64,000 bases of DNA from Verrucomicrobiota bacterium (GTDB taxonomy: Bacteria; Verrucomicrobiota; Verrucomicrobiia; Limisphaerales; J093): positions 1-64,000 of the forward strand of contig JAKLFY010000033.1 of assembly GCA_022710935.1 (NCBI GenBank). Direction: 5' to 3'. A program made the position numbers and the translations under genes. Shown here piece by piece: positions 26,837 to 50,477 of the stretch. The notes under the pieces are model-generated. The model was given only the letters and a program-made list of their open reading frames with translations. It was not told the DNA's origin and did not search any database. Within the stretch, counting starts at the first letter, position 1, and each line of letters opens with the position of its first letter.

Positions 26837-29800
26837 CTATTGGGAAGAGGGAGCGGCCAAGGCCTTCTTGGCCTCAGCCAACAACGGCTCCTTCAACCCG
26901 GCCGCAATCGCCTTCCGAAGTTGTTCCTTGCCCTGATCGGTCTGCTTGATTTGGCATTGGGCCATGCCGAGGTAGAACAGGGCCTCGCTGTCGTCGGGCT
27001 GCCTCCGGACATAGGACTCGAGCAGCGTGGTGGTGTAACGGTAGTCCTTGCGCGCGTAGCTCAGCAACGCCAGGGCTCGAGCCACGCCGCCATCGTCCGG
27101 AAAGGCCTCGCGCGTTCTCGATAGCAGATCGTAGGCCCGCTGCCCCTGGGCGGGATCGCCCGCCAACACCAGGCCCAGCTCACGACTGGCCGGCGCAAAC
27201 CTCGGGAACACCCGAAGCACCCGCTCGTAAAGCGTGGCCGCCGACTTGCCGTCAGCCCGCGCGCGAAACAGAGCCGCTTGGGCCATCAACGCAGGCACAT
27301 GATCCGGATCAGCCTTTAGAACCTCCCGGATCCGCGGTTCTGCTTCGGCCAGTCCCCGCGGATCGAGCGCAAGGGCCGTCATCGAAACGAAAGCGCGCGC
27401 GGCATCGGCCGCCTGGAAGTCGGGCTGGATTTCGAGGGCGCGGCGCATGGCTTGGTGTGCGTCGGCCACCCGTCCCATGGCGTAGGCCGCCCACGCGTAG
27501 TCGTATTGCAGATCGGCCTGCTGCGGACTTCGTTGAGCGGCGGATTGCAGCAGGCCGTAGGCCTGGACGTGATCGCCGCGCCGAGCCAGGAGGCGTCCAA
27601 GCAAACCCGCGGCCTGCGGGTCGTTCGGGGCGAGTTCGTGCGCCTTGCGGGCGATCTCGAGTGCCTTGGCCTGGTCGTTCAACGGCCCGGCGTTCAGTTC
27701 GGCCAGGCGCAGACTCGCCTGCGCGGCCTTCGGGTTTTGACGAAGGATCTCCTCGTATTCAGCCGCGGCTTTCGGAAACTGGCCCTCCTGCTCGTAAACG
27801 GCGGCGAGGCGGGAGCGGGCGGTGAGATCCCTGGGCTGGTCTTTGACACGCGCTTCGAGCGTCGCCCTGTCCTCCGTGCCGCCGGCCGCGGATCCGGACG
27901 TAAGCAGCGCGAGCTGACGCTGGGCCTCGGCTTTGCTCGGGAAAGACTGCGGCGCGGCCACGGCCCGTTCGAGGGCAGCCCGGGCGGCGTCCGGCTGGCC
28001 GAGCATGTAGCTGACCATTCCCAAGTGGTATTGAATCTCTGCGTTGCCGGGGACTCTCTGGGCGGCCTCGCGCAGCAACGGCAAGGCCTGCTGATCTTCG
28101 CCGCGCTTGTGCAAAACCCAGGCCAACGTATCCATGACCGAGGGATCTTCCGGGACCAATTGGCGCGCCTTTTGGGCCAATTCATGCGCGCGCTCGAGTT
28201 GCGGCAGCCGTTCGGTGTACAGGTATGCCAGGTTGTTGAGCGCGGGAACGAACTGCGGATTGATCTCGAGGATCCGCTCGTACTTGGCGCGCGCCTGTTC
28301 GGGCTGATCCATCCGCTCGTAAAGCGTCCCGAGAATCGCCATCGACTGAACGTCGTTTGTCTTCTTCGAGATCAATTCCTCGAGCTGCCGGGCTGCCCCG
28401 GCCAGGTTGGTGTTGGCGATGTGGATGTCGGCCAGCAATTGGTACGCCAGCGAGAATTGCGGGTTGAGGCCGATCGACTCCTCGAGCGATGCCTGCGCCT
28501 GGGGCCAAAGGCGCTGGGCCGCAAGCGCCCGGCCTTCAAGGTACTTCAGAGCCGCCGAGTTCGTCCGGGCCAGCTCGGTCTGCACCGTCTTGAGCGCGGC
28601 CGGCGCATTGGTGGCCGCAATCTCGAGATCGACGAGCTGGTAGAGGGCCATCAGGCTGCCCGGTGAAAGCTCGAGCTCGCGCCGGAACGCGTTTCGAGCG
28701 TCCGCCATCCGCCCCTGCTCGCGCAGCAGCATCCCCAGCATCAGGGGAAATGCCGGCCTGTCCGGATGGTCGCGAATCAGTCCCTGGCAGGTGGCCACCG
28801 CCTCGTCGAGCCGCCCCGCCCCGCGCTGGGCGTCGATCAGGAGAATCCGCGCCTCGAGGACGTTGGTGATGCTGAGCAATCGCTGCAGGGATTCGACAGC
28901 AACGGCCGGAGTGCGGCCTTCGACATGCAGTCGGGCGCGCAAGAGACGGGCTTCGATGGCCACCGTGTCGAGCCTGTTCGAGCTGGCGATGATGGCCTGG
29001 TCGAGCGCGGCGCCCGCCTTGACGCTGTCGCCGCCAGACAGGTGGGCACGCGCCACCTGCAACTTGATGAACGGGTTGGGCCGCACGCTCTGGTCGAATT
29101 GCTCCCATTCGAGCGCCGCTTTCTCCGGCTGGCCCTTGGCTCGGTGCAATTCAGTGCGCAACTGGCGGGCCTCGATATTCAGCGGGTCCTTCGACACGAT
29201 GCGTCCGGTCAGCGCGAGGGCTTCATCGAGCCTCTTGTCCTGCATCTCGAGACGCGCCAGCAGGAGCGCGGCCGGAAGGTAATCAGGCGCCTGGCTCAAG
29301 ACATCCTCGAGCAGGGCCCGCGCTTCGTCCGGTTTGCCGGACACCATCTTGCTCTGGGCATAGGCCGTGTGCACAGGCGAGCGCGGCGGCGCGAGTTTGA
29401 CAGCCTTTCCGAACGCTTCGTCGGCCGCAGCCAGGTTGGTCCGCAGGAGATGGATCTGCCCCATCTGCACATGCGCCTGCGCCTGGTTCGGATCCAACTG
29501 CAGCGCGCGCTGCACGAACTGTTCAGCCGTATCGAGCTGCCGCTGCCGGGTCAGGAGCGCCGCACGAGCCAGAAGAACCGCCGCGGAGTTGGGATGCTTG
29601 GCGTCGAGTTGCTCCAGGTAGACCGTCGTGTTTGTCAGTTCCTGGGATGGGGTGCCGGGCCCGGCCAGCAATCGCAAGGCATCGCTGTTGGTTGGCGACT
29701 GCGCCAGCAGATCGAGCAGTTCATTGCGTCCTCGAACGGTGTCCCCCGTCGCCAGCCGAAACTCGGCAAGCCGGCAACGCAGAGCGGGATCGTCCGATTC

Positions 29801-30079
29801 GAGATGCGGATCGGCGGCCTGCATGGCCTGCATGGCCTGGACCGGCGAGCCTTGCTCGAAGAAGATGCGCGCGACGCGCAGCAGCGCCGTGCGGTTGGTC
29901 GGATCCAACCGCAACACGTTGCGGTACTCGATGATCGCCTTCTCGTATTGCTCCGATGCGAAGTACTTCTCCGCCCGGCCGAAGTGCCGGTCGCGTTTTG
30001 CTTCGCGGGAGCATCCGGCCGCCCCCAGGAGGGCGGCGATCATCAGCACGGACAGGAGACTTCGATTTGCGTTATTCAT
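26837..30079 (-). CDS. prsT: PrsT-like TPR lipoprotein (XrtA/PEP-CTERM system)
   Basis: The 1080-residue protein starts with a lipoprotein signal (LLSVLMIAALLGAAGC, lipidated Cys at residue 23). The rest is almost entirely tetratricopeptide repeats (A-x-x-x-Y-x-x-x-L-x-x-x-P patterns such as KAIIEYRNVLRLDPTN and AAAEYEEILRQNPK). This size and layout match the TPR lipoprotein PrsT that accompanies PEP-CTERM/exosortase loci. TPR lipoproteins are thought to scaffold export or assembly of polysaccharide or PEP-CTERM proteins in the periplasm. It ends at a strong terminator and is separated from the prsR gene by 500 bp of repeats, so it probably has its own promoter. Confidence 0.85.
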   Translation of the reverse strand: MNNANRSLLSVLMIAALLGAAGCSREAKRDRHFGRAEKYFASEQYEKAIIEYRNVLRLDPTNRTALLRVARIFFEQGSPVQAMQAMQAADPHLESDDPALRCRLAEFRLATGDTVRGRNELLDLLAQSPTNSDALRLLAGPGTPSQELTNTTVYLEQLDAKHPNSAAVLLARAALLTRQRQLDTAEQFVQRALQLDPNQAQAHVQMGQIHLLRTNLAAADEAFGKAVKLAPPRSPVHTAYAQSKMVSGKPDEARALLEDVLSQAPDYLPAALLLARLEMQDKRLDEALALTGRIVSKDPLNIEARQLRTELHRAKGQPEKAALEWEQFDQSVRPNPFIKLQVARAHLSGGDSVKAGAALDQAIIASSNRLDTVAIEARLLRARLHVEGRTPAVAVESLQRLLSITNVLEARILLIDAQRGAGRLDEAVATCQGLIRDHPDRPAFPLMLGMLLREQGRMADARNAFRRELELSPGSLMALYQLVDLEIAATNAPAALKTVQTELARTNSAALKYLEGRALAAQRLWPQAQASLEESIGLNPQFSLAYQLLADIHIANTNLAGAARQLEELISKKTNDVQSMAILGTLYERMDQPEQARAKYERILEINPQFVPALNNLAYLYTERLPQLERAHELAQKARQLVPEDPSVMDTLAWVLHKRGEDQQALPLLREAAQRVPGNAEIQYHLGMVSYMLGQPDAARAALERAVAAPQSFPSKAEAQRQLALLTSGSAAGGTEDRATLEARVKDQPRDLTARSRLAAVYEQEGQFPKAAAEYEEILRQNPKAAQASLRLAELNAGPLNDQAKALEIARKAHELAPNDPQAAGLLGRLLARRGDHVQAYGLLQSAAQRSPQQADLQYDYAWAAYAMGRVADAHQAMRRALEIQPDFQAADAARAFVSMTALALDPRGLAEAEPRIREVLKADPDHVPALMAQAALFRARADGKSAATLYERVLRVFPRFAPASRELGLVLAGDPAQGQRAYDLLSRTREAFPDDGGVARALALLSYARKDYRYTTTLLESYVRRQPDDSEALFYLGMAQCQIKQTDQGKEQLRKAIAAGLKEPLLAEAKKALAAPSSQ

Positions 30080-30580: not shown

Positions 30581-31966
30581 CTACTCCGCAGGCATTGCTT
30601 TACCGTCCCGATCCGGGCGTGCGATCGCGAGCTTCTCGATCAGCTCATAGAGCGTCGGACGGCTAATATCGAGTTCGGTCGCGACGGCGGTCATCTTGCC
30701 GCCATTGCGCCGGAGAGCCGCCTGGATCACCTCGCGTTCCGCGGTCTCCCGCGCCTGCTGAAGGGTGCGCGCGGTCTGGCTGGCCGAGACCGCAGGCGTC
30801 AACTCGAGATCTTCCGGCGTCACGCGGGGGCCGTCGGCCATGATCACGGCCCGTTTGATGCGATTCTCGAGCTCGCGCACGTTGCCAGGCCAGGAATAGC
30901 CCTGCATCGCCGCCAGGGCCTGCGGGCTGAAACCAGCCGAATCCCGCCCAAACTCGACCGCGAACTTGTTCAGAAAGACCCGTCCCATCAACAACAGATC
31001 CCCTCCCCGATCCCGCAATGGCGGCAGATGCAACACCACGACAGCAAGACGATAGAAGAGATCCTCCCGAAACTTGCTCTCGCGAATTGCCCGCTGCAAA
31101 TCGGTGTTCGTGGCGGCGATCACACGCGCATCGACCTCGATCGGCACCCGGCCGCCCACCCGCTCGATCCTGTGTTCCTGAAGATAACGCAACAGCTTCA
31201 CCTGGATCGCCAAGGGCAACTCGCCGATCTCATCCAGAAACAGCGTGCCCCCGATGGCGGATTCGATCCGGCCCTTGCGCTGGGTGTGAGCGCCGGTGAA
31301 GGCGCCCTTCTCATGCCCAAACAACTCGCTCTCGAGAAGGGTCTCCGGGATGGCGCTGCAGTTGATCGGAACGAACGGACCGCCCTTGCGCTGGCTGCGG
31401 CGATGGATCGCCAGCGCGGCCTTCTCCTTGCCCGTGCCGCTCTCGCCGAGAATGAGCACCGGGGCATCGGTCGCCGCGACTTTGCGGACGGTGTTGAACA
31501 GTTGCTGCATCGACGGGCTCGCGCCCAGCATGTCCTCGAATCCGTCCTCATCGAGCCGGTGATGCAGGTCCCGGTATTCGCGCTCGATCCGGGCAAGGTG
31601 AAAGGCGCGACGCAGGATGACCTTCAATTCGTCGAGATCGACCGGTTTCGACAGAAAATCGTAGGCGCCGGCCCCGACCGCCCTGAGGGCATTCTGCTTT
31701 TCACCTTGGCCGGTTACGATGATCACCTTGGTCAGTTTCTCGATCGCGAGCAACTCGGCAAGGATCCCCAGGCCCTCCTCCGGCGAGTCCGGGTTGGGCG
31801 GCAGCCCCAAATCCAGCAGCACAACCATCGGACGGCACGCTCGGAATTGTTCCAGCGCGCTCGCACGATCCCCCGCCAGCAGAAGCTCATAGGCCCCACC
31901 CAGGGCCCATTTGAGCTGGGAGCGGATTTCGTCGTCGTCGTCAACAATCAGGAGCCGAGATTGCAT
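30581..31966 (-). CDS. prsR: PrsR-like sigma-54 response regulator
   Basis: The 461-residue protein has a receiver domain (residues 5-120, phosphoacceptor Asp52 in LLDLGLPP), a sigma-54 AAA+ domain with GESGTGKE (174-181), an intact GAFTGA (221-226) and LFLDEIGE (242-249), and a Fis-type HTH (GGKMTAVATELDISRPTLYELIEKL). This matches the PEP-CTERM-box response regulator class that works with the PrsK kinase. It should activate RpoN-dependent promoters when phosphorylated. It is the last gene of the minus-strand xrt-prsK-prsR2-export-prsR1 group and starts 16 bp after the export gene's stop. Confidence 0.92.
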   Translation of the reverse strand: MQSRLLIVDDDDEIRSQLKWALGGAYELLLAGDRASALEQFRACRPMVVLLDLGLPPNPDSPEEGLGILAELLAIEKLTKVIIVTGQGEKQNALRAVGAGAYDFLSKPVDLDELKVILRRAFHLARIEREYRDLHHRLDEDGFEDMLGASPSMQQLFNTVRKVAATDAPVLILGESGTGKEKAALAIHRRSQRKGGPFVPINCSAIPETLLESELFGHEKGAFTGAHTQRKGRIESAIGGTLFLDEIGELPLAIQVKLLRYLQEHRIERVGGRVPIEVDARVIAATNTDLQRAIRESKFREDLFYRLAVVVLHLPPLRDRGGDLLLMGRVFLNKFAVEFGRDSAGFSPQALAAMQGYSWPGNVRELENRIKRAVIMADGPRVTPEDLELTPAVSASQTARTLQQARETAEREVIQAALRRNGGKMTAVATELDISRPTLYELIEKLAIARPDRDGKAMPAE

Positions 31967-31982: not shown

Positions 31983-32720
31983 CTAGAACATCGAAAACCG
32001 TTCAGGCACGTACACGATGTCCGACGGACGAAGGTGAAAGGGCAGCGCGGGCCCGCCCGCCATCACCGGTTTCAGATCGATGATGAAGGTCTTCATCCGC
32101 TCCCCGTCGCGACGCATCACCCGCACGGCCTTCAGGTTGGCGCGTGTGTAATCGAAGCCTCCCGACTCCATGATGGCTTCGAGCAGGGTGATCGGGCGGT
32201 CCGATGTCACTTTGCCCGGTCGCAACACCATGCCGGTGACAAAGACCGAGAAGGCCGTGGACTCGAGACTGACGGTGACGTCGGGAGCAAGCAACTGGTT
32301 CCCGTACACGGCCAGGATCTCCTTCTCGAGCGCGCTCGGTGTCAGACCGGCCGCCTTGAGATCCCCGACCAAGGCCAGGTTGATGTTGCCGTCGCGCCGG
32401 ATTTGCTGCGTCGTGTTCAAGTTCGGGCTTCCCGGGAACGTGACCTTCACGACATCCCCCTCGCGCAGCACAATCGCCCGGTCCGGCTCGGCGTCCGCCG
32501 GACTGATGAAGGTGGGGCGGTGCGATTGACAGCCCGAGGGCAAGAGAATCAGCGCCAGAGTCAGGACCGCCCACGCAAGCGATGCGCTTCCAGCCCGCAC
32601 AGCAGGAAACCCGCGAGTTTCGCCTTGCAGCAATCTGCCAAGGCCATGAATGATGCCGTGACCCGGTTGCCGCCAACTTCCAGATTCAAGAATCCCGACG
32701 TCCGTTGTTGTCTGTTTCAT
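31983..32720 (-). CDS. Polysaccharide export lipoprotein (Wza-type)
   Basis: The 245-residue protein has a hydrophobic segment ending in a lipobox-like LPSGC (Cys near residue 65), preceded by an unusually long, non-hydrophobic leader of about 45 residues, so the true start may be further in. The mature part has the poly_export domain (GDVVKVTFPGSPNLN, IRRDGNINLALVGDLKAAGLT) and an SLBB-like region (VFVTGMVLRPGKV, LLEAIMESGG). Such lipoproteins form or line the outer-membrane channel for exopolysaccharide. It lies between the two response-regulator genes with gaps of only 3 and 16 bp, indicating one operon. Confidence 0.9.
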   Translation of the reverse strand: MKQTTTDVGILESGSWRQPGHGIIHGLGRLLQGETRGFPAVRAGSASLAWAVLTLALILLPSGCQSHRPTFISPADAEPDRAIVLREGDVVKVTFPGSPNLNTTQQIRRDGNINLALVGDLKAAGLTPSALEKEILAVYGNQLLAPDVTVSLESTAFSVFVTGMVLRPGKVTSDRPITLLEAIMESGGFDYTRANLKAVRVMRRDGERMKTFIIDLKPVMAGGPALPFHLRPSDIVYVPERFSMF

Positions 32721-32723
32721 TGT

Positions 32724-34112
32724 CTATTCCTCGCTTGTTTCCTCCGAATGATCCCAGATAAGACTCCGACGTTCGATCCCCAGTTTCTCCATCAACGAGT
32801 AGAACGTGGGCCTGCTGATCCCCAACTCCATCGACGCCGCCGTGATCTTGCCATGGTGCTTCCGCAGCGCCCCGATGATCACAGCCCTCTCGGCGCTTTG
32901 ACGGGCCTCGCGCAAACCGGCGGCCGCAGGCTGCACGGTCGATGGCGTCAGCCCAAGATCGTCCGCCCTCAGGATGTCGGTGTCCGACATGATCGCCGCG
33001 CGTCGCACGCAGTTCTCAAGTTCGCGCAGATTGCCCGGCCACGCATGCCGCTCGAGCGCGCGCAGCGCCTCGCTGTCGAATTGCAGATTCGGCCGGTCAA
33101 ACTGCGCCGCAAAGCGCTTCAAGAACCCCTCGGCCAACTGCCGGATGTCCTCCTTGCGGTCGCGCAGAGCGGGGACCCGGATCACCAGCACCGCCAACCG
33201 ATAGTACAGGCCCTCGAGGAAGCTGCCCTTGGCGATTGCGGCGGTCAAATCCTTGCTCGATGCAGCAATGAGCCGCGGCGCGATCTCACCGGATGGCCGC
33301 TCTTTTCCCCCATCCGCCACCCGCTCCTCGAGCAGCCGCATGAGCCGAACCTGCGACCTCAGCGGCAAGTCGCCCACGTCCTGAAGAAACAGCGAGCCGC
33401 CGGACGCCGACTCGAGCCGGCCTTCCGCGGAGGCCCCGTCGCTCTGGGCATCGTCCTCGCGCCCGAACAGTTCGCTCTCCAGAAGGCTTTCGGACGCCAT
33501 GTCGCAGTTGAGTTTCACGAACGGTCCGGCCCGAAGCGCGCTCTGCCGGTGAATCGCCAGGGCCACGACGTCCTTCCCCGTGCCGCTCTCGCCCAGGATC
33601 AATACCGGCGCCTCCGTCGTGGCCACCTTCCGGATGTTCACAAGGAGTTCTTCCATCCGCGGGCTTCGACTTTGAAGAAGCTCGAACGGCTCAGCCTCGG
33701 GATGCTGCCGGATCTCCTCGTATTCGCGTTCGAGGGCCACCACGTGGCGGCAGTGGCTCAGAAGCAGCTTCAGGCTGTCGATTTGCACCGGTTTGAGCAG
33801 GAAATCGCAGGCCCCTTCACCGACCGCCCGAGCCGCTGTCTCCTTGCCGCTCAGACCGCTGATGACAATCACCTTCGTATGCCGGTCCAGATTTCGCATG
33901 TCCGCCAGGGCAGCCATCCCTTCGCGTGGATCGTTCGGCAACGGCGGCAGACCGAGGTCGAGCAACGCCAGATCCGGACGCCGCGCCCGAAATGTCTCGA
34001 TAGCACTCGAGCGGTCCTTGGCCAGCAAGACTTCGTATTCGTCGGCCAGCGCCCATTTCAACTGGTCGAGGACAGCCTCGTCGTCGTCGATGATTAATAC
34101 GGTAGGTTTCAT
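32724..34112 (-). CDS. Degenerate PrsR-like response regulator without GAFTGA
   Basis: The 462-residue protein parallels the neighbouring PrsR: receiver domain with Asp52, AAA+ Walker A GESGTGKD (174-181), and a Fis-type HTH at the end (GKITAASMELGISRPTFYSLMEKL). But the sigma-54-contacting loop is lost: residues 220-231 read DDAQSDGASAEG where its paralogue has GAFTGA. Walker B is LFLQDVGD (241-248) instead of LFLDEIGE. It should therefore not remodel sigma-54 holoenzyme. It may act as a DNA-binding competitor or sigma-70-type regulator. The ATG at 34112 gives a normal receiver start; the kinase gene's stop is 13 bp upstream. Confidence 0.9.
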   Translation of the reverse strand: MKPTVLIIDDDEAVLDQLKWALADEYEVLLAKDRSSAIETFRARRPDLALLDLGLPPLPNDPREGMAALADMRNLDRHTKVIVISGLSGKETAARAVGEGACDFLLKPVQIDSLKLLLSHCRHVVALEREYEEIRQHPEAEPFELLQSRSPRMEELLVNIRKVATTEAPVLILGESGTGKDVVALAIHRQSALRAGPFVKLNCDMASESLLESELFGREDDAQSDGASAEGRLESASGGSLFLQDVGDLPLRSQVRLMRLLEERVADGGKERPSGEIAPRLIAASSKDLTAAIAKGSFLEGLYYRLAVLVIRVPALRDRKEDIRQLAEGFLKRFAAQFDRPNLQFDSEALRALERHAWPGNLRELENCVRRAAIMSDTDILRADDLGLTPSTVQPAAAGLREARQSAERAVIIGALRKHHGKITAASMELGISRPTFYSLMEKLGIERRSLIWDHSEETSEE

Positions 34113-34125
34113 TGGATAAAAGTGT

Positions 34126-36231
34126 TTAAGTATGCAGCGGCAACAGCACACGAAACGTCGTGCCGCGACCAGGCTCGCTCTCGACCTCGACTCTCCCGCC
34201 ATGCGCTTCAACGATCATCTTGCTCTGGAACATCCCAATCCCCAGACCCTTCTTCTTGGTCGTTTGAAAGGGGCGAAAGAGCCGCCGGCTCAGGAACTCC
34301 GCGCTCATCCCGCAGCCCGTGTCCGCCACGGAGACAACCGCATGCCCGCCCTGGACCATCGTCGCCACACGAATGGTCCCAGACCCCGTAATCGCTTCCC
34401 GGGCATTGAGCAGCAGGTTGGTCAGGACCTTGGGTAACTGCTCGAGATCGACCGGCAATCGGGGAACCGACTGCAAGTCCTGAATCACCTGGATCGAATC
34501 CGCACCGTCAATCTGCCCCAACACAGTCGTGACCAACTGGTTCAGATCCGCCAAAACGGGCTTCACCTCGAGCCCGCGGCGGATCAGGGCAAGCCGCTGA
34601 ACCAGGCCATTGAGTCGATCCACCGAAGCCCCAATCCCGCGCAGAGCATCCGCCCTGAACTCCGGGTCGCCGAAATGCACCGGCAGGTTCCGCAACATCA
34701 ACGAGAGCGTCGACGCCGTGTTTTTCAGGTCGTGGACGAAGAAGGCCGACATCGACTGAAACGCTTCGAGTTCCCTGGCCTCGATCAGTTTCCGCGATAA
34801 CTGCAGATTCAGCAGGCTCGCAGCCACCTGATCCCCGATGCACTTCAGCAAATCGTAATCCTCATGCGAAAACTGGACGCCGCTGACCCGATCGGCCAGC
34901 GTGATGAACCCAAGCACCTCTCCCGCGGCCACCAACGGGACGCAGACCCGATTCCCGCCTTTCTTGAAATAGTCCGGATTGCACCGCTTCAGGGTCTCAA
35001 CCCAGCCGCCCTCGGAACGGTTGAGATCCAGCGGCGTCGGCGCCGCGCGCACGGCCGCGATCACCGCCGCGCTGTCGTCTCCCAAATCGAGCAGTTCGTT
35101 TGCCGCTTGCTCGGTCAAAGCCGTCGACGCGCCGAAGCGCAATTGCTGCCGATGCGGGTCCACCAGCCAAACCGTGACCGAGAGCGTGTTGAAGGTCTCG
35201 GCAATCAGCGTCGCCACGGCCCGACACAAATCCGCCTGGTCGAGCCGCGACGTCGTCCGTTCGGTAAACGCAGCCCATACACGCCGATAATCATAGACAG
35301 GGCGCCGCAAGTGCCGGCTGATGAATTGCTGCGTCCGGTGCCGAACGCGGTCGGACATCAACACGACCGCCAACCCCACCAGGGCCAGCAGCAACAGCAA
35401 CGCCTTGAGCGCAAAGGCCTGGTCGCCCCCAAACCGCGCGACGACTTCGGCCAGCACACCGACGCTGAGCAGGTAGACCCCAGCCAACAGAACCGTCAAT
35501 GAACCGTACAGAAAGGCATGGGACGGATAGACGTCGACCTCGCTCAAACCGGTCCTCAGGAAGGAGAACGCCAGCAGCAGCGTTCCCAGCAGCAGACTCG
35601 TGCCCAACACGCCGACAATCGGGAGTTGAATTCCCGAGAACAACACCGCCTGGCTGCTGACGTACATCCGGCCTCCGAGAATCACCGCGAGGCCGAGCAT
35701 GACGAATTTGACGCGCCATCGCATCATTCCCACCGTGCTGCGGAATGTCTTCTCGAGGTTGATCAGGACCAGCAACAACCCCAACAGATGGATCACTTCG
35801 AGCGCCTTGCCCGCCCAGCCTAGCGGAATGAACTGGACCGGCCCCCACACCGGCTCGATCGACTCCCCGATCAAATCCGAATGAAACCCCGCGGCCAGCG
35901 AGACCGGGATCAGCACCGCGCCAACCAGCACCCATCGCCATCGGTCGAGGAATTCGCGATAATTGCCCCGGGAATAGCATAGACTGTACGCGAGCCACAC
36001 ACTCGGCAGCACCGCCGTCAGCCACATTCTCCGGCCCTGCCATAGAAACGCCGACTCCGCAGATTCGCTGCCCGCAAGGACCCCGGCCAATGCCGTGTCC
36101 GCCGCCGCCAGCAACAAGCCGATCGCAAAGCTCCAGTGAGTCGCAATGCGGTGTTTGAACACCAGCCACGTCAGTGCCAGACCGCCGGCACACGCCGCAG
36201 CCGCAAATGCCGCTAGTGCATTCAAACTCAT
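34126..36231 (-). CDS. prsK: PrsK-like membrane histidine kinase
   Basis: The 701-residue sensor has about eight N-terminal membrane helices (to about residue 295), a GAF domain (about 320-470), a histidine box FFVHDLKN (near residue 499) and an ATPase domain with NLLLNAREA, DTGCGMSAEFL and KKKGLGIGMFQSK. This layout is that of the XrtA/PEP-CTERM system kinase PrsK, expected to phosphorylate the PrsR regulators encoded just downstream. Its input is unknown. ATG 36231 is chosen because it overlaps the exosortase stop by 4 bp (ATGA, 36228-36231). Confidence 0.93.
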   Translation of the reverse strand: MSLNALAAFAAAACAGGLALTWLVFKHRIATHWSFAIGLLLAAADTALAGVLAGSESAESAFLWQGRRMWLTAVLPSVWLAYSLCYSRGNYREFLDRWRWVLVGAVLIPVSLAAGFHSDLIGESIEPVWGPVQFIPLGWAGKALEVIHLLGLLLVLINLEKTFRSTVGMMRWRVKFVMLGLAVILGGRMYVSSQAVLFSGIQLPIVGVLGTSLLLGTLLLAFSFLRTGLSEVDVYPSHAFLYGSLTVLLAGVYLLSVGVLAEVVARFGGDQAFALKALLLLLALVGLAVVLMSDRVRHRTQQFISRHLRRPVYDYRRVWAAFTERTTSRLDQADLCRAVATLIAETFNTLSVTVWLVDPHRQQLRFGASTALTEQAANELLDLGDDSAAVIAAVRAAPTPLDLNRSEGGWVETLKRCNPDYFKKGGNRVCVPLVAAGEVLGFITLADRVSGVQFSHEDYDLLKCIGDQVAASLLNLQLSRKLIEARELEAFQSMSAFFVHDLKNTASTLSLMLRNLPVHFGDPEFRADALRGIGASVDRLNGLVQRLALIRRGLEVKPVLADLNQLVTTVLGQIDGADSIQVIQDLQSVPRLPVDLEQLPKVLTNLLLNAREAITGSGTIRVATMVQGGHAVVSVADTGCGMSAEFLSRRLFRPFQTTKKKGLGIGMFQSKMIVEAHGGRVEVESEPGRGTTFRVLLPLHT

Positions 36232-37244
36232 GCGGGACAAGTCGGCGGCGAGGCTGCGGCGCGCATCGACTGTGGCGGTTCACCGCTCCTCGAACACGGC
36301 GGCCGCTGCTGCCCAACCGGAGGCGGTGCTTGAGGGCCTTCGGCCTTCCTCGGCCGCTCGGTCTTGCGCAGCCACAGCAGCAGCAAAAAGAACGGGATCA
36401 GCGAGAGCATGAAGAACACCGGCCCGCCCCGGCGATGGATCGGCGAATCAATCATCTCGGGCGACACATGCACACACAGCATCGAGATGGTCAGAATCCG
36501 GAACCCGTTCCTCACGATGCCGAGCGGTATCACTGCGAGCGCCAACACCCAGCGCCTCCAACCCGTCCGCAAAAGCACATGTCCGCCGAGCACGGCCGTA
36601 ATCAACAGAACATAGCTCGACCGGATGCCGCTGCACTCCTGCGCCACCTGGAGCGTGATCCCGGGCAGGTCGAACACCTTGCCGTCCCGCACAAAGGGAG
36701 TCCCCGACACCGCAAGGAGCACCGCCGCGGCCTCCGCCGAGGCATACTGCAGACCGATCTCGACCGCATCGATCATGGCCGTCGGCCACGGAATCATGAA
36801 GGCGAGGAAGGCGATCGGGAAACACAGAGCGCGGACAATGCCCGTCCCGAGGCAACCCAGCGCACACGCCAACATCAGACCCAGATAGGCCGTGGTCATG
36901 AGGCTGAGGTAGTCGACTGTCGGCAGCGGACCGCGTGCTCGCAAGCCGGTCCAGTACCACACCAGCAGTGCCAGACCGATTGCGCCCGGCAGCGCTGCCC
37001 AAACCGATCGCGCCGACTGCGGCAGCGACACCGACCCGAGCCGTTTCCAAATCAGATAGCCGCTGATCAGCGGAATGAGAAGGACATGGGAAAACAGATC
37101 GCTTCGCAGGGCGAACCGGCCCAAATCCCAGAGCGGCCACGCGAACGCGAGCGTGACCAGCGCCCCGCAGACGGCGAACCCGCGCCAACCGCTGCGTTGT
37201 AGGCCGGGTCCCTCGACCCAGCGCTGCGCTGTGCCCGATGTCAT
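36228..37244 (-). CDS. Exosortase
   Basis: The 338-residue membrane protein has about eight hydrophobic segments and the exosortase catalytic set: Cys in AQECSGIRSS (near residue 204), Arg in VRNGFRI (near 250) and His in SPIHRRGG (near 270). Exosortases cut C-terminal PEP-CTERM-type sorting signals and are tied to exopolysaccharide loci. No fused EpsI domain is present. The two ends are odd: residues about 9-18 are encoded by a REP palindrome (37195-37222), and the last 50 or so residues are a Pro/Arg-rich tail overlapping another repeat type. ATG 37244 is preferred over GTG 37256. No PEP-CTERM substrate is encoded in this window. Confidence 0.9.
   Translation of the reverse strand: MTSGTAQRWVEGPGLQRSGWRGFAVCGALVTLAFAWPLWDLGRFALRSDLFSHVLLIPLISGYLIWKRLGSVSLPQSARSVWAALPGAIGLALLVWYWTGLRARGPLPTVDYLSLMTTAYLGLMLACALGCLGTGIVRALCFPIAFLAFMIPWPTAMIDAVEIGLQYASAEAAAVLLAVSGTPFVRDGKVFDLPGITLQVAQECSGIRSSYVLLITAVLGGHVLLRTGWRRWVLALAVIPLGIVRNGFRILTISMLCVHVSPEMIDSPIHRRGGPVFFMLSLIPFFLLLLWLRKTERPRKAEGPQAPPPVGQQRPPCSRSGEPPQSMRAAASPPTCPA
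37195..37222. repeat. REP palindrome inside the exosortase 5' coding region
   Basis: The block tgtaggccgggtccctcgacccagcg has the CCGGGTC/GACCC stem form of the REP family that fills the adjacent 500 bp. It lies within the first 20 codons of the exosortase gene. Confidence 0.7.
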
Positions 37245-37256
37245 GATTCGCGCCAC

Positions 37257-37740
37257 TGCCGCCCTGTAGGCCGGGTCCCCCGACCCGGCGCCGGCGTCTG
37301 TGATGTACCCAAGGTCATGATTTCGATGTCACCCTTCGCGCCGCGTGAGGCCACGCGGCCTACAGCATCGTTGCCGGCCGCGTTGTAGGCCGGGTCCACC
37401 GACCCGGCGCCGGCGTCTGTGATGTACCCAAGATCATGATTTCGATGTCATGATTCGCGCCGCGTGAGGCCACGCGGCCTACAGCATCGTTGTCTGCCGC
37501 CTTGTAGGCCGGCTGCCCTCAGCCGGCGTCAGTTGTAGGCCGGCTGCCCTCAGCCGGCGTCAGTTGTAGGCCGGCTGCCCTCAGCCGGCGTCAGTTGTAG
37601 GCCGGCTGCCCTCAGCCGGCGTCAGTTGTAGGCCGGCTGCCCTCAGCCGGCGTCAGTCACCGAAGACGTTCTTCGCGCCGCGTGAGGCCACGCGGCCTAC
37701 AGCATCGTTGCCGGCCGCGTTGTAGGCCGGGTCGTCTCAG
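37257..37740. repeat. REP/REPIN cluster with five exact 31-bp tandem copies
   Basis: This gap downstream of the RAYT gene contains no other gene. It holds alternating tgtaggcc... elements in both orientations, with stems CCGGGTC/GACCCGG and CCGCGTG/CACGCGG. From 37502 to 37656 there are five head-to-tail 31-bp copies of the CCGGCTG/CAGCCGG type. Another pair ends at 37740, where the RAYT gene's stop codon (37737-37739) lies inside the element. Confidence 0.9.
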
Positions 37741-38420
37741 TCTTCCTGCTCTTCCACGAGCATTCCGGTATCCAACAATGGAGGTGTTCCACGCTCGACG
37801 CGCGGACCATTGGGATCGTCGTGGAGAACCTCCCCGCCGTACGGCCATTGTTCTGGCCGCTCAACGTAACCATAACGAACTGGGTTGAGGCACAGATACA
37901 CCCACTTGCGCTGCTCGCTTTCGCAACTGCGGAACTTGTGATCGTGAAAGCCCGCTTGCCATCGCCAAGCCCGTTTCGTGCGAGTCAATTGGTGTTGTGA
38001 CTTGATCTCAGGCCCAAGCACGCCGCGGGCCGCATCATTCGCCTGCTTTCTGGTCGATGCCCGCGGGAGAACAGACGTTGAGTGTTGCAGGGGTTCAAGG
38101 CCGGCCGTCACGGCTTTCAGCGCTTTCACCCATTGCCCAAGGCGCACCGCTTCGCGACCCTGTTGGGCGATCAGGTGAATGTGATCCGGCATGATAATGA
38201 ACCGCCGCGCAAACCAGCCGTATCGGCTTGGACTGCCGAGCAAGAATCCACTCAACCGCTCGAACGTCAGTTCATTGGCAAGCACATGGACCCGACCATC
38301 GACGCACAGGGTTAACAGATACGAAATGTTGCCGCCAGGATCGGGCCAGACCCGGTGAAGCCGCCGCAATCGCCGCGGTGCTGGTTCGGGTTCGTTGGGT
38401 TGATCTCTTCTGATTCGCAT
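37737..38420 (-). CDS. REP-associated tyrosine transposase (RAYT)
   Basis: The 227-residue protein has the Y1-HUH transposase pattern of RAYTs: the metal-binding IIMPDHIHLIAQ (HIH) and a C-terminal block WQAGFHDHKFRSCES then YLCLNPVRYGYV with the candidate nucleophile tyrosine. RAYTs nick and rejoin single-stranded REP hairpins and are thought to spread them. It sits directly between two dense REP arrays, which are its likely substrates. The ATG at 38420 is chosen over upstream starts because the preceding codons lie in REP sequence and a GAGGAGG-like site precedes it. The stop is inside a REP element. Confidence 0.9.
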   Translation of the reverse strand: MRIRRDQPNEPEPAPRRLRRLHRVWPDPGGNISYLLTLCVDGRVHVLANELTFERLSGFLLGSPSRYGWFARRFIIMPDHIHLIAQQGREAVRLGQWVKALKAVTAGLEPLQHSTSVLPRASTRKQANDAARGVLGPEIKSQHQLTRTKRAWRWQAGFHDHKFRSCESEQRKWVYLCLNPVRYGYVERPEQWPYGGEVLHDDPNGPRVERGTPPLLDTGMLVEEQED

Positions 38421-38506
38421 CGCCACATCCAGCCTCCTCTGCTCCGCGCAGATCCATTGCCCTCCGGTCTGCGCAAGCATTCGAGCATACCACCGAAATG
38501 CGTCGA

Positions 38507-39295
38507 TGTCACCCTTCGCGCCGCGTGAGGGCACGCGGCCTACAACATCGATGTCTGCCGCTCTGTAGGCCGGCTGCCCTCAGCCGGCGTCAGTCACCGA
38601 AGGCGTTCTTCGCGCCGCGTGAGGCCACGCGGCCTACAACATCGTTGTCGCCCGCCTTGTAGGCCGGCTGCCCTCAGCCGGCGTCAGTCACCGAAGACGT
38701 TCTTCGCGCCGCGTGAGGGCACGCGGCCTACAACATCGATGTCTGCCGCTCTGTAGGCCGGCTGCCCTCAGCCGGCGTCAGTCACCGAAGGCGTTCTTCG
38801 CGCCGCGTGAGGGCACGCGGCCTACAGCATCGTTGTCAGCCACCTTGTAGGCCGGCTGCCCTCAGCCGGCGTCAGTCACCGAAGACGTTCTTCGCGCCGC
38901 GTGAGGCCACGCGGCCTACAACATCGATGTCTGCCGCTCTGTAGGCCGGCTGCCCTCAGCCGGCGCCTGTCACCGAAGACGTTCTTCGCGCCGCGTGAGG
39001 CCACGCGGCCTACAGCATCGTTGTCAGCCACCTTGTAGGCCGGCTGCCCTCAGCCGGCGCCTGTCACCGAAGGCGTTCTTCGCGCCGCGTGAGGCCACGC
39101 GGCCTACAGCATCGTTGTCAGCCACCTTGTAGGCCGGCTGCCCTCAGCCGGCGCCTGTCACCGAAGACGTTCTTCGCGCCGCGTGAGGCCACGCGGCCTA
39201 CAACATCGATGTCTGCCGCTCTGTAGGCCGGCTGCCCTCAGCCGGCGTCAGTCACCGAAGGCGTTCTTCGCGCCGCGTGAGGCCACGCGGCCTAC
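38507..39295. repeat. REPIN array: nine elements at an exact 94-bp period
   Basis: The string cgcgccgcgt begins at 38517, 38611, 38705, 38799, 38893, 38987, 39081, 39175 and 39269, each exactly 94 bp apart. Every full unit carries two different hairpins in opposite orientation: GCCGCGTG-aggc-CACGCGGC and GCCGGCTG-ccct-CAGCCGGC. Linkers vary slightly (for example tgccgctc versus agccacct; gtcag versus gcctg). It begins just upstream of the RAYT gene. It ends in the stop codon of the outer-membrane protein gene (39292-39294). No gene is present. Confidence 0.95.
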
Positions 39296-41932: not shown

Positions 41933-42916
41933 TTACAAGCTCACACCGCCAATCCGTTTGAGCCATATCTCGCGCCATAGATGGTGGGCGTCGCGCGGGC
42001 ATCCGCCCCATCGACCGTAGCCGTCACACGTGACGCCTTCGAGGATCACAGTATGCTTGATCTCACGCATTTCGCCGGTGGTCTCGAGGATGATCCGGCC
42101 CACCCGCTTGCGGACCCGGTACCGCTCTCCGCAGAAGGGGAGCATATGCACCGGAAATTGCAGCCCGCGGTTGCGGCCATGTCGATCCAGTGTAAGGGCG
42201 ATCTCGTCGGCGCGTTTCACCTCGACCCAGTCCCCTCGATCGAGATCGAGAGTCACTGTGGGCGTCGGTCTGGCTGCGCCCCGCAGTTTCACGCTCGACA
42301 CCCCGCAGAACACCGCTTTCAACCGAAGGCTGAACGCAGCCCACACAAAGCGGCGCATCTCCGCCGGAGACCATGTCCGGGTGCGCAGGTCCCGATAATA
42401 CTGCCGAAGATCCGCCTTCGAGAGAGGCTGTGTCGCCCCGAGGAGTTCCGTGGACTGACAGATGTACCGCCCATTGGCTTGTTTGACCGGATAGCCATAG
42501 GCAGGTGCGGACGGCCTCGGAGAGGCGTCCGGCTCGGGATCCGGGTCGTGGCTACAACGTTCAAGCCAGGACTCGTGCCAGAACAGCGCGCACTCCTTCT
42601 CGCACCCGTCGTGGGCCGAGCCGTCGCACCGGAGCGCGTCGAGAAGAACCACATTCCGCATCCGCCGCACACGATCGCCTTCAACACACGTCTTCTCGAT
42701 GCGGCGCCACACGTGAAACCGGCGCCCACAGAACGGGAGCATCTCAGGCATGAACGGGAGCCCATCGTGGCAACCCCTTTCATCCAACGTTGCCTGGACC
42801 TCCTGCCAGCGCTTGACCGCCACCATCTCGTCAGGCAGCAAACCCAACCCGCGTCTTGCCGATCGAGCATCCACTGAAACTGAGCTGCTTCTTCGAACCT
42901 CTTTGATGCGGCACAC
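41933..42916 (-). CDS. Tandem-duplicated Cys-motif protein of unknown function
   Basis: The 327-residue protein contains two related domains (about 29-118 and 230-324). Shared landmarks are a V-x-V-K-R-x-x-E-(V/I) start, LD-x-x-G-(C/R)-x-x-G-L-x-F, EMLPFCG/HMLPFCG, a VWRRIEKT/VRKRVGRI stretch, a CDG motif, and a final Cys-rich turn before (F/L)W-x-E-x-W-L-(E/K)-R. Conserved Cys residues in each copy suggest a metal site or disulfides. I know similar single-domain hypothetical proteins from EPS-type clusters but no activity. The linker holds GYPVKQANGRYICQSTELL and a helical YYRDLRTRTWSPAEMRRFV region. The start is GTG 42916 and is uncertain. Confidence 0.65.
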   Translation of the reverse strand: MCRIKEVRRSSSVSVDARSARRGLGLLPDEMVAVKRWQEVQATLDERGCHDGLPFMPEMLPFCGRRFHVWRRIEKTCVEGDRVRRMRNVVLLDALRCDGSAHDGCEKECALFWHESWLERCSHDPDPEPDASPRPSAPAYGYPVKQANGRYICQSTELLGATQPLSKADLRQYYRDLRTRTWSPAEMRRFVWAAFSLRLKAVFCGVSSVKLRGAARPTPTVTLDLDRGDWVEVKRADEIALTLDRHGRNRGLQFPVHMLPFCGERYRVRKRVGRIILETTGEMREIKHTVILEGVTCDGYGRWGGCPRDAHHLWREIWLKRIGGVSL

Positions 42917-43101: not shown

Positions 43102-44655
43102 TCACCGCCCAACCACTCTCGACAACCTCGATCCCACCGCTTGACGCAGATTGTAGACCGAGGTCGGGTCGCCAAGCGCCCTTTGCACGAGCCGGGCAAC
43201 GAGCTTCCGTAACTGAAGAAAGCGAATCTTGCTCCAGATCAGCATCTTCATCGGCAGCCGATGGCGTTCGCCGAAGGTCAGCACGGACGGACGCAACAAC
43301 CAGGGCAGGAGACAGCGCGGCACAAACCCAAGCCGATACCCGGTCACCTTGCCCTCCATGAGCGACAGAAGCCCGTTGAGATAGAGATTCTTGAGCTTCC
43401 AGGGATGAGACTTGTACTTGAGGCCGCTGCGGTAATCCAGTTCGTAGCCGCTGTGCGTCTTGCCGTCAATGAGGCCGTCCTGGACCGCCCGATCGTAGAG
43501 AGCCGTCCCCGGAAAGAAGACCAGATTGTACACCTGCAGGTAGAACGGATGCGGAAGGTGCTTGAGGAAGTCCACCGTCTCAAGAAGATCCTCAGGCTCC
43601 TCGTACGGATTGGCGACAATCATGAAATAGCAGAGGACAACCTGCCGGTGCCGCTGGATGATCTCGGCGGTGCGCCGCACGATGCGGTTTGGCATGTTCC
43701 GCTCATACACCTCCGTCTTCGTGCGATCACTGCCGCTCTCGAGACCGAGGCGGATCCGCCACAGCCCCGCCTTGACCAGCAATTCTGTCTTTCTCTCGTT
43801 CAAGACGAGCGGCGAACTCATGCACTCAAAGGGCAAACCCACCTCGCGTGGATAAGTCTCCGCAAACTCTTCGAGTTCCGCCACCGGCCGCGCGCAGAAA
43901 TCCTCGTCGATCAAATAGACGTACTTGGCGTTCGGAAAGAGGGGCAGGAGCTCGCGAATGCTCCGGACATATCGCGAGATCGTCATCCGGCGCACGTAGG
44001 GGCCCTTGTTCTCGTAGACCGCTTTGAGCTTCTTGTTGCTGCAATAGGTGCAGTGAAACGCGCAGCCCCGCGACCCGTTGAACATGATCGGTTCGCGCAC
44101 ATCAAAGACCTCGCGCGGCCGGCGCAAGCCGCGCTCGCTCAGGTGAAACTCATTCTCGTGCGCGAAGTCGAAAAGCGGCAACTCGTCCAGGTCACGAATC
44201 AGACCACGGGGCGGATTCACAACCAGGTTGGCGTCCTGGACGTACACTGCGTTGTCCAAATCACGCCAATCCCGCTCATGCGTCAACCGCTCGAGCAACT
44301 CGACCATAAACCCCTCGCCCTCCCCCCGGCAGACAACATTCGCCGAACGCGCGGCGTCGGACGGGTCCAACGTGGCGTGCACGCCTCCCCACACAACGAA
44401 GGGCTTCCGGGGACCCAAAGCCTCCATAACCTGACGCGCTTTCTCGGAACCCCGCGCCAGGCAACTCAGCCCCACCACCCTCGATCCATCGACGATCTCG
44501 CACACTCGATCGAGCATCTTCCGGTCGAACCGATGGGCCTCGATCGAGCAGAGAAGCTTCGTCGTGGTGTGCCCCGCCCGACGCAACTGTGCCGACACGC
44601 TCCGCAGGCCCAGGGCCCATGGATCGCTCTCGGTGTAGATCAGTGTGACGTGCAT
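43102..44655 (-). CDS. B12-binding radical SAM protein
   Basis: The 517-residue protein has an N-terminal cobalamin-binding-like domain (about 1-140, with VVGLSCLARGSEKA and VVWGGVHATLDP) and a radical SAM core with the cluster motif CAFHCTYC (residues about 200-207), followed by IDEDFCARP and GLESGSDRTK. Such enzymes use adenosylcobalamin-type chemistry to methylate or rearrange unactivated carbons, often in lipids or glycans. The true substrate cannot be read here. In the exosortase/acyl locus it could modify the polymer's acyl or sugar unit. It lies between the asnB-like gene and the duplicated Cys-motif gene. Confidence 0.88.
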   Translation of the reverse strand: MHVTLIYTESDPWALGLRSVSAQLRRAGHTTTKLLCSIEAHRFDRKMLDRVCEIVDGSRVVGLSCLARGSEKARQVMEALGPRKPFVVWGGVHATLDPSDAARSANVVCRGEGEGFMVELLERLTHERDWRDLDNAVYVQDANLVVNPPRGLIRDLDELPLFDFAHENEFHLSERGLRRPREVFDVREPIMFNGSRGCAFHCTYCSNKKLKAVYENKGPYVRRMTISRYVRSIRELLPLFPNAKYVYLIDEDFCARPVAELEEFAETYPREVGLPFECMSSPLVLNERKTELLVKAGLWRIRLGLESGSDRTKTEVYERNMPNRIVRRTAEIIQRHRQVVLCYFMIVANPYEEPEDLLETVDFLKHLPHPFYLQVYNLVFFPGTALYDRAVQDGLIDGKTHSGYELDYRSGLKYKSHPWKLKNLYLNGLLSLMEGKVTGYRLGFVPRCLLPWLLRPSVLTFGERHRLPMKMLIWSKIRFLQLRKLVARLVQRALGDPTSVYNLRQAVGSRLSRVVGR

Positions 44656-44785
44656 CTCTCGAGTGCGCGTGCTTCAGCACCGCTTTGCACCTCGCGTCTC
44701 ATGGAAAGCGGCCTTGGCCGCGCAGCCATGCACAAACCACATGAACCGGCCACCTTGATCGGGTGACCATCAACCCATCAACCCA

Positions 44786-46798
44786 TCACCCATCAACCTG
44801 TTCACGCAAGCATCGCCGATCGACCACCTTGACTTCGTCCTCGGCTGCGAGCGGCGTTCGAGCTCGCGGGCTCTCGAGGAACAGGCGATTCGTCAATTGC
44901 GTCGAGAGAATTCCCGCCAACGCCATATCATCGGTCTCGCCCAGGGCTTTACCGTCGTCCAACTTCGCCACCAAATGGGTGACGGCCGACGGATTGAAGA
45001 AGCCGGTCCGCTTCAGAGCAGTCTCGCCCAACAGCTCACGAACGTAGTCCGGGGTGCGTGCATTGTAGAAACTGCGGTGAATCGGCGCGCGGTAGGGGCG
45101 TTTGGAGCGCCGGACAATCTCGGGCGGCAGCCAGCTTTCGGCCACGCGTCTCAGGAGGTATTTCTCCGTCAACGCTCGGAGTTTCAATCTCGCCGGCAGC
45201 CGATTGCAGAACTCGACCACGCGATAGTCCAGGAACGGAAATCGCCCTTCAACCGAATGGGCCATTGCCGGTCGATCGCCCTGAGACGACAAGAGGTATT
45301 GGGACAGGAAGATGCTGATCTCGCAGTATTGAGCGCGGGCGAGCGGATTCCACCGCGGCATCCCGGATGGGAAGGTGGGCTGGCTGTCGGCTCCACCCCG
45401 ATCGAGCGCCACCTTGTTCTTGACATCACGGGAGAAGAACCGGCAGGTCCGGCGGTTATTCTGCCAGCGCACCGCGTGCGAGTAGTCCGGGCGAGCGAGG
45501 TCGGTCAGGCCGATGCCGAAGAACGCCTTGAGCATGCTGACGCTCGACGCCCCCAGGCGGCTGATGTCCGGATAGAGCCGCTTGAGGAGCAGCGGACGCC
45601 ACGTCGAATCGGGCTGCTGGGCCCAAAACCGGCGCACCTTCGCTTCCTTGAAAATGTCGTACCCGGCCAGGAACTCGTCGGCTCCTTCGCCCGTGAGCAC
45701 GACTTTGTAACCTCGGTCGCGGACGAGTTTCGACAGCAAAAACATCGGCGCCGGCGAGGTGCGCATGATCGGCGTCTCGGTGTGCCAGATGACGTCCGGA
45801 AAAACGCCTCCGATGTCCTCATGCGTGGCCAAAACAACCTGGTGCTCGGTGCCAAGGAACCTCGCCATCCGGCGCTGATGCTCGCTTTCGTCGAACTGCG
45901 CATCGGTAAAGGCAATCGAGAACGTGTCGAGGCGGCTGACCCCGAGAGTCCGGATGATGGCGGCGATGGCGGATGAGTCGAGGCCGCCGCTTAGATAGGC
46001 CCCAACCGGCACGTCGGCCCGCAGTCGAATACGGGTCGCATCGACCAACAAGGCGCGGAGTTCCTCGACGTAGCTCTCGATCGGTCGGCCACCCCGCTGC
46101 TCCGCTCGCTCGCCTTCCTCAGGAAACCCGATTGTCCAATACGGAGTCACTCGCAGCCGACCACCCTTGGCCACCATGTAATGCCCCGGTGGAAGCTCGA
46201 CGATGCCCCGGAAACAGGTGCGCGGCGAGAGCGTCGACCAGTAGGTGAAGATCTGATCGAGCGCAACAGGGTCGAGTTCGGCTCGAACCTCGGGATGGGC
46301 GAGGATGGCCTTGATTTCGGATCCGAACACCAGCGCCCCTTCGAGTTGGGTGTAGAAGAGCGGGCGCACACCGAGCCTGTCCCGGGCCAGGAACAACGAG
46401 CGGTCCTTCTCGTCCCAAATCGCGATCGCAAACTGGCCGTTCAACCGATTCAGACAGTCGGGTCCATACTCCTCGTAGAGGTGCAAGATGACCTCGGTGT
46501 CGCTGGCTGTCGTGAACCGGTGCCCGCGCGTCCGCAAGTCCGCGCGCAGCTCGATGTAGTTGAACACCTCGCCGTTGTAGACGATCCAGAGGGTCTGGTC
46601 CTCGTTGCCGATCGGCTGCTGGCCGGTGTTTAGATCGAGAATGCTGAGGCGGGCGTGGCCGAGTGCCACATGTGTGCCCAGGTAGATCCCGAACTGATCC
46701 GGGCCCCGATGTCGGATCGTGCCGAGCATCCGCCGCATCAATTCGTCAGTCGGTGCCGCGGTGCCGTGTCGATTCAGTACACCTGCAATTCCACACAT
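44786..46798 (-). CDS. asnB: Asparagine-synthase-type amidotransferase (exosortase associated)
   Basis: The 670-residue enzyme begins MCGIAGVLNRHG, giving the N-terminal Cys nucleophile of class II glutaminases. It has the RLSILDLNTGQQPI and YNGEVFNYIEL blocks, and the synthetase P-loop LSGGLDSSA (about 266-274). It is longer than housekeeping AsnB. Amidotransferases of this family are recurrent in exosortase/EPS loci, where they are thought to amidate a precursor rather than make asparagine. The C-terminal codons run into a short tandem GATGGGTT-type repeat after the stop. Neighbouring acyl ligase, ACP and NadE-like genes make an acyl or polymer amidation role attractive. Confidence 0.92.
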   Translation of the reverse strand: MCGIAGVLNRHGTAAPTDELMRRMLGTIRHRGPDQFGIYLGTHVALGHARLSILDLNTGQQPIGNEDQTLWIVYNGEVFNYIELRADLRTRGHRFTTASDTEVILHLYEEYGPDCLNRLNGQFAIAIWDEKDRSLFLARDRLGVRPLFYTQLEGALVFGSEIKAILAHPEVRAELDPVALDQIFTYWSTLSPRTCFRGIVELPPGHYMVAKGGRLRVTPYWTIGFPEEGERAEQRGGRPIESYVEELRALLVDATRIRLRADVPVGAYLSGGLDSSAIAAIIRTLGVSRLDTFSIAFTDAQFDESEHQRRMARFLGTEHQVVLATHEDIGGVFPDVIWHTETPIMRTSPAPMFLLSKLVRDRGYKVVLTGEGADEFLAGYDIFKEAKVRRFWAQQPDSTWRPLLLKRLYPDISRLGASSVSMLKAFFGIGLTDLARPDYSHAVRWQNNRRTCRFFSRDVKNKVALDRGGADSQPTFPSGMPRWNPLARAQYCEISIFLSQYLLSSQGDRPAMAHSVEGRFPFLDYRVVEFCNRLPARLKLRALTEKYLLRRVAESWLPPEIVRRSKRPYRAPIHRSFYNARTPDYVRELLGETALKRTGFFNPSAVTHLVAKLDDGKALGETDDMALAGILSTQLTNRLFLESPRARTPLAAEDEVKVVDRRCLREQVDG

Positions 46799-47108
46799 CT
46801 TGATGAACTGCTTCGCCAGGGCGCTTCCGCACCGCTCTGGCGTGGGGCGTCAGCGAATACCGTCATCGGAAAGCGGCGGCAGACCGTGCGCTCCACCAAG
46901 GGTGTCGGGCGGCGAGCGACAGGGGCGTGGACGGCCCCGTCCACAGCCGGTGCCGACAACCAGTTCGTTTGCCGAAAAGGACAGGTCACCGGGATCGGTC
47001 GGGGACGAGGCCGTCCCCACTCCAAAGACTTCGCCACCCCGGACGCGCTCTCTTCGCGTCGATTCGCGTCCATTCGCGGTTCAAGACCTGAACAGTCAGG
47101 TCTGCCGA
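46799..47108. repeat. Intergenic gap with palindromic repeats
   Basis: No gene is seen in these 310 bp. It contains GTGGACGG-cc-CCGTCCAC (about 46927-46944) and GGGGACG-aggc-CGTCCCC (about 47003-47020, followed by actccaaag). The second is a repeat class that also occurs inside the acyl ligase gene at 48440-48465. Confidence 0.7.
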
Positions 47109-48929: not shown

Positions 48930-48954
48930 GCCGTGTTAGCCCGTGTAGTCCGCC

Positions 48955-49130
48955 GCGCTGTAGGCCGGCTGCCCCCAGCCGGCGTCAGTCATCGAAAACA
49001 ACCTCTGCGCAGCGTGGTGCACGCGGCCTACAACACATTTGTCTGCCACGCTGTAGGCCGGCTGCCCTCAGCCGGCGTCAGTCATCGAAAACAACCTTTG
49101 CGCAGCGTGGTGCACGCGGCCTACAAGGTC
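48955..49130. repeat. Two REPIN units in tandem at 93 bp
   Basis: taggccggct starts at 48961 and again at 49054. Each copy pairs a CCGGCTG/CAGCCGG stem with an inverted gcgcagcgtggtgcacgcggcc element, a variant of the CCGCGTG stem. The outer linkers (atcgaaaacaacct) differ from the 38-39 kb array (accgaagacgttct). No gene is seen in the 48930-49184 gap. Confidence 0.88.
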
Positions 49131-49184
49131 CATTTGCGGTTCACTTGAGCGGCTGCCCTTTCAGAGGAGAATTGCCCAGACAGA

Positions 49185-50425: not shown

Positions 50426-50477
50426 GGTGCCACTGCCCGGCGTGTTCAATCCCACCGAGAAAAAGGCAAGAACCACC

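Follow-up and report, generated by a model that had tools for sequence, protein, structure and literature searches.

The window, the whole stretch of 64,000 nucleotides that was analyzed, comes from a Verrucomicrobiota bacterium and carries an exosortase locus on its minus strand. The genes run in the order exosortase – PrsK – D – Wza-like – PrsR – PrsT, where D is the response regulator studied here. The exosortase (36228–37256) is closest to XrtC, of the VPDSG-CTERM type, with 266.4 bits on TIGR04151 (cut-off 300); it scores above the cut-off of TIGR02602 and matches PF09721. The following genes encode the PrsK histidine kinase (34126–36240; 407.5 bits on TIGR02916, cut-off 300), D (32724–34112), a Wza-like polysaccharide export lipoprotein (Poly_export) of 245 aa (31983–32720; PF02563 and SLBB), an intact PrsR (30581–31966; 606.6 bits on TIGR02915, with GAFTGA and DEIGE intact) and PrsT, a TPR lipoprotein (26837–30079; 393.1 bits on TIGR02917, cut-off 312.2). 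Between the exosortase gene and PrsR, neighboring genes either overlap or are separated by 3 to 16 bases, and a single transcript that includes D is therefore likely. A preliminary description of this DNA had placed D next to PrsR; the two do lie in one gene run, with the Wza-like gene between them.

The D gene is read from ATG to stop in an intact frame of 462 aa, and its product is 49% identical to the intact PrsR. Pfam finds Response_reg (PF00072), Sigma54_activat (PF00158), an AAA lid and HTH_8 (PF02954) – the REC – Sigma54_activat – Fis-type HTH architecture of the group I (NtrC type) enhancer-binding proteins. On the NCBIfam model of the PrsR equivalog, TIGR02915, D scores 436.9 bits, below the curated cut-off of 502.6 and thus outside PrsR by score. 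Like PrsR it shares an exosortase locus with PrsK, and it lacks GAFTGA, the sigma-54 interaction motif of PrsR. The full NtrC-type set of Walker A, Walker B, sensor I and both arginine fingers is incomplete in D, and its NtrC architecture with loss of GAFTGA is that of the GAFTGA-less sigma-70 regulators.

Upstream of the exosortase gene, between 37260–39290, short GC-rich palindromes of the GTAGGCCGGCTGCCCTCAGCCGGCGTCAGT and GCCGCGTGAGGCCACGCGGCCTACA types form an array around an IS200-like Y1 transposase-like gene (37737–38534, minus strand; PF01797 at 20.3 bits, below its cut-off). Together the palindromes and this gene resemble a REP/RAYT element. The array separates an outer-membrane-protein gene from the exosortase gene; the same gap in the sister genome G001 is only about 21 bases. 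Further along the minus strand, a 327-aa protein with no Pfam match (41933–42916) apparently consists of two copies of a Cys-containing unit of about 100 residues, and the region 43102–51569 encodes an asparagine synthase, an AMP-binding ligase, a phosphopantetheine carrier, a radical SAM/B12 protein and a hexapeptide transferase, a gene set found in many exosortase-polysaccharide loci.

Residues lost and retained in D

D was aligned to 70 comparable PrsR proteins, some sites being readable in 68 or 69 of them. The L1 loop, which carries GAFTGA, is replaced in D (DDAQSDGASAE; 33423–33455); it is mostly substituted and is one residue shorter, with REDDAQSDGASAEG at the position of HEKGAFTGAHTQRKG in the sigma-54 loop of PrsR. 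This loop is intact in essentially all 70 proteins, and GAFTGA is absent from every other reading frame of the D stretch. Walker B reads QDVGD in place of DEIGE (33369–33383), a change of Asp244 to Gln at a position that is Asp in 70 of 70. The second sigma-54 loop, L2, has changed from RVGG to GGKE (33300–33311), though its R, G and G are found in all 70 PrsR; in sensor I, Thr-Asn has become Ser-Ser (33255–33260; all 70 have N or H at the Asn286 position); and R299, an arginine finger, is replaced by Leu (33216–33218; R299 and R305 are both Arg in 70 of 70). K180, D244 and R305 are invariant across the set. The replaced GAFTGA loop and QDVGD had been reported in the preliminary description and are confirmed, as is its statement that Asp52, Walker A and the HTH are kept; the losses in L2, sensor I and R299 had been missed.

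The retained positions are found in all three domains. Walker A is GESGTGKD with Lys180 present (33570–33593), and Asn202 and the sensor II Arg363 are kept as well. In the receiver, the phospho-acceptor Asp52 (33957–33959; Asp in 68 of 68 readable PrsR), Lys107 and the acid pair D9-D10 (34083–34088) are present in the window, the pair being A-G in the D of a second genus. Arg15 of alpha-1, found in 66 of 68 PrsR, is Leu in the D of both genera; the alpha-1 helix of receivers usually faces the kinase. In the HTH, S433, R434, T436 and Y438 are retained, giving the helix core S-R-x-T-F-Y. The recognition helix SRPTFYSLMEKL (32781–32816) carries Ser439, a position that is Glu or Asp in all 69 readable PrsR and Ser or Asn in the D orthologs of both genera.

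In PspF and NtrC, contact with sigma-54 is made by L1 and L2, and ATP hydrolysis involves the Walker B Asp, sensor I and the arginine fingers. Given the losses in L1, L2, Walker B, sensor I and an arginine finger, D should neither engage sigma-54 nor hydrolyze ATP well. Chance is excluded as the origin of these motif losses, since K180, D244, R305 and the loop are conserved across PrsR and the ortholog in the second genus has the same losses. An AlphaFold model of D has a mean pLDDT of 80 and a pTM of 0.52, with five segments below pLDDT 50 that include residues 220–227 (L1) and 266–275 (L2). Its best fold matches are NtrC1, NtrC4 and NtrX, with FleQ and VpsR lower.

Orthologs, gene order and selection

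Orthologs of D were found in two other genomes. Verrucomicrobia bacterium ADurb.Bin006 (G001), the sister genome, has a copy 95% identical to D with the same losses (L011:9001–10386). The other, in a second genus of the same family (G009), is 43% identical (L050:3322–4725) and is also sigma-54-dead: it is without L1 and L2, its Walker B reads SEIDE and so lacks the Asp, and the sensor I Asn and an arginine finger, in this case R305 and not R299, are also lost. Its receiver has also lost the acid pair, VDD having become VAG (VAGD). The spacer between prsK and D (34112–34126) is about 13–16 bases in the window and about 257 in G001 (L011:8744–9000), though the genes on either side of it are 93–95% identical between the two.

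The order is prsK – D – wza-like – prsR in all three genomes. Nearly every other locus has prsR directly behind prsK, and within the family the order in G002 and G013 is prsK – prsR – wza; this puts D in the ancestral prsR slot directly behind prsK, with the intact copy behind wza. A search of 320 genomes of the order gave 66 with a match at E ≤ 1e-110, a cut-off below which more decayed copies could be missed, and among the loci read only these three genomes had a dead copy. All 70 comparable PrsR proteins examined were intact. Of 388 genomes sampled across the phylum, 15 gave a match, and only intact copies were present in the 14 loci that were checked. The prsK–prsR gaps of six other loci contained no D-like relative, and the matches in a plasmid search were all below 60% identity.

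The dead copies form one clade in the tree (99/99), where long branches meet; the D branches are 1.27 and 2.16 changes per site. The careful tree does not place D as sister to the PrsR copies of the same genomes, but the forced grouping was not rejected (p-AU 0.93), and the D branches are long. Recent tandem duplication within the species was rejected as the origin of D, with D and PrsR only 49% identical and D common to a second genus.

Between the genome of the window and the sister genome, dN/dS was 0.13–0.15 for D and 0.13–0.16 for PrsR. The receiver and HTH of D had 3 nonsynonymous and 20 synonymous substitutions (2 and 12 in the receiver alone) versus 21 and 32 in the AAA+ domain plus lid (Fisher p 0.03, from few substitutions), making the receiver and HTH the most conserved parts of D between these genomes; PrsR had no such contrast between domains (p 0.40). 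The HTH of D is 57% identical to that of its own PrsR, compared to 59–63% between PrsR proteins of different genera. D is very probably a real and selected paralog of PrsR that is sigma-54-dead. The interpretation in the preliminary description is supported in part: D is a paralog unable to drive sigma-54, it lies in a run with PrsK and an intact PrsR and is kept by selection, and the search for orthologs that had been proposed turned up the same losses in both genera.

Possible roles of D

The presumed role of PrsR is to drive the surface proteins that depend on exosortase. In Proteobacteria it has been linked to sigma-54 sites before PEP-CTERM genes (PMC1569441), and a PEP-CTERM gene of Aquincola requires RpoN (PMC9850573). 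The genome of the window has rpoN, and a sigma-54-like sequence, TGGCAT-N5-STGCT, is found just upstream, near the start codon, of all four VPDSG-CTERM genes that score over the family cut-off (G000, C195:2162, C195:3501, C27:8155 and C27:10267; L150, L151). Genome-wide there are 8 such sites in 7.5 Mb, 4 of them at VPDSG-CTERM genes, and 4 of a control pattern. With rpoN and putative sites at 4 of 4 VPDSG-CTERM genes, there is a predicted sigma-54 regulon for D to brake. A PrsR enhancer motif was not derivable from the four promoters; TTACA-like words are present, not at the distance reported in Proteobacteria.

D has been preserved by evolution and so is unlikely to be a dead gene; it probably works as a brake or as a rewired regulator. 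The best explanation, a tentative one that stops a little short of being probable, is that an operon-internal duplicate of prsR has turned into a sigma-54-silent DNA-binding regulator, most likely braking PrsR at its own sites. The gene prsR would have been duplicated inside the exosortase operon. As the sequences show, the copy directly behind prsK has lost both sigma-54-contacting loops and the ATP-hydrolysis residues, and the other copy, located after the wza-like gene, has retained the original PrsR job. D would still fold as REC-AAA+-HTH, and is expected to bind nucleotide and, as a dimer or a larger oligomer, DNA. Expressed on one transcript with prsK and prsR, as the spacing suggests, it would occupy PrsR enhancer sites or join PrsR oligomers at VPDSG-CTERM sigma-54 promoters without opening them. 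A brake is the simplest reading since D would be a co-expressed, DNA-binding twin of PrsR that is unable to open sigma-54 promoters.

The losses shared by two genera, the D clade, the conserved gene order, the dN/dS, the constraint on receiver and HTH and the HTH identity tentatively favor the brake. Counting against it are residue 439, the receiver chemistry, which is unlike between the two genera, and the fact that the GAFTGA-less NtrC of R. capsulatus, HupR and VpsR regulate sigma-70 promoters and are not antagonists (PMC10274813, PMC3162934). Since residue 439 of both dead copies is unlike that of every readable PrsR, the DNA sites of D may differ from those of PrsR. The antagonist at the same DNA sites that had been proposed is plausible from the shared S-R-x-T-F-Y core, but the comparison of recognition helices, which differ at 439 from 69 of 69 PrsR, does not allow identical specificity to be assumed.

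The main rival to the brake is that D is a regulator of the sigma-70 type, like VpsR or the NtrC of Rhodobacter, with promoters of its own, activating or repressing promoters of the housekeeping polymerase, for example those of polysaccharide or exosortase operons. This is possible, if on the doubtful side. GAFTGA-less NtrC-type proteins of tested function do work at sigma-70 promoters (PMC10274813; PMC3162934), VpsR likewise controls exopolysaccharide, and the D model matches VpsR structures among others. The changed residue 439 of both orthologs speaks for such a regulator, although it is compatible with either reading, and the retention of Walker A and sensor II is as expected if ATP binding, not hydrolysis, matters. 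However, D is found inside the prsK-prsR gene run in 3 of 3 genomes, and its HTH core is PrsR-like. To our knowledge, the GAFTGA-less regulators described so far are single, none being twinned with an intact paralog beside it.

As a function common to both genera, competition for the phosphate of PrsK, which the preliminary description had suggested, is disfavored: the Mg-binding acid pair is gone in the second genus (VDD to VAG), and Arg15 is gone in both. The genus of the window retains Asp52, the acid pair and Lys107, its receiver is tightly constrained, and D directly follows prsK, but the second genus has kept the gene in the same place with A-G for the acid pair, and a pure sink would have no need of a conserved HTH; a phosphate sink is improbable. 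That D is a pseudogene in decay, or stems from an error of sequencing, is more improbable still. Catalytic residues are gone, and the two genera have lost different arginine fingers, as might be expected from decay, yet open frames of 462–467 aa persist in three independent genomes over very long branches, with a dN/dS of about 0.14 and with the HTH and receiver the parts best conserved between the sister genomes. Sequencing error was rejected: three genomes agree, and no frame restores the motif.

If D is a brake, this conserved dead twin would be built into an all-or-none sigma-54 switch. D and PrsR may then form a pair, the dead twin tuning the active sigma-54 activator at shared enhancers, either by competing for sites or through mixed oligomers – dominant-negative by duplication – though this is put forward with some reserve; a search of the accessible literature found no described dominant-negative enhancer-binding paralog. 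The locus would show how a sigma-54 activator can become an antagonist, or a regulator of the sigma-70 type, with its intact sister still next door, and the prediction for D is a sharp one: activation lost, DNA binding kept.

Comparison with known regulators

D resembles PrsR (TIGR02915) in its architecture, its place in the PrsK gene run, an identity of 46–54% and its HTH core, and differs in falling below the family cut-off and in the loss of L1, L2, the Walker B Asp, the sensor I Asn and one arginine finger. Activators without GAFTGA were already known before D, and R. capsulatus NtrC, HupR, VpsR and Caulobacter NtrC regulate at sigma-70 promoters (PMC10274813, PMC3162934). VpsR of Vibrio cholerae is likewise a REC-AAA+-HTH protein without GAFTGA; it is linked to exopolysaccharide and acts at sigma-70 promoters. 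Its identity to D is 28–30% over the aligned part, it has no known twin in the form of an intact paralog, and its loop carries a deletion (PMC3162934), whereas that of D is mostly substituted. The NtrC proteins of Rhodobacter capsulatus, which needs ATP binding, and of Caulobacter are also NtrC-type response regulators without GAFTGA, but each is the sole NtrC and has its loop deleted, while D has an intact, sigma-54-competent copy in the same gene run. FleQ and FleT of Cereibacter sphaeroides (PMC11999139) are two related enhancer-binding proteins that cooperate, one of them with a missing part; in FleT the missing part is the HTH, while D keeps its HTH and is without the sigma-54 part.
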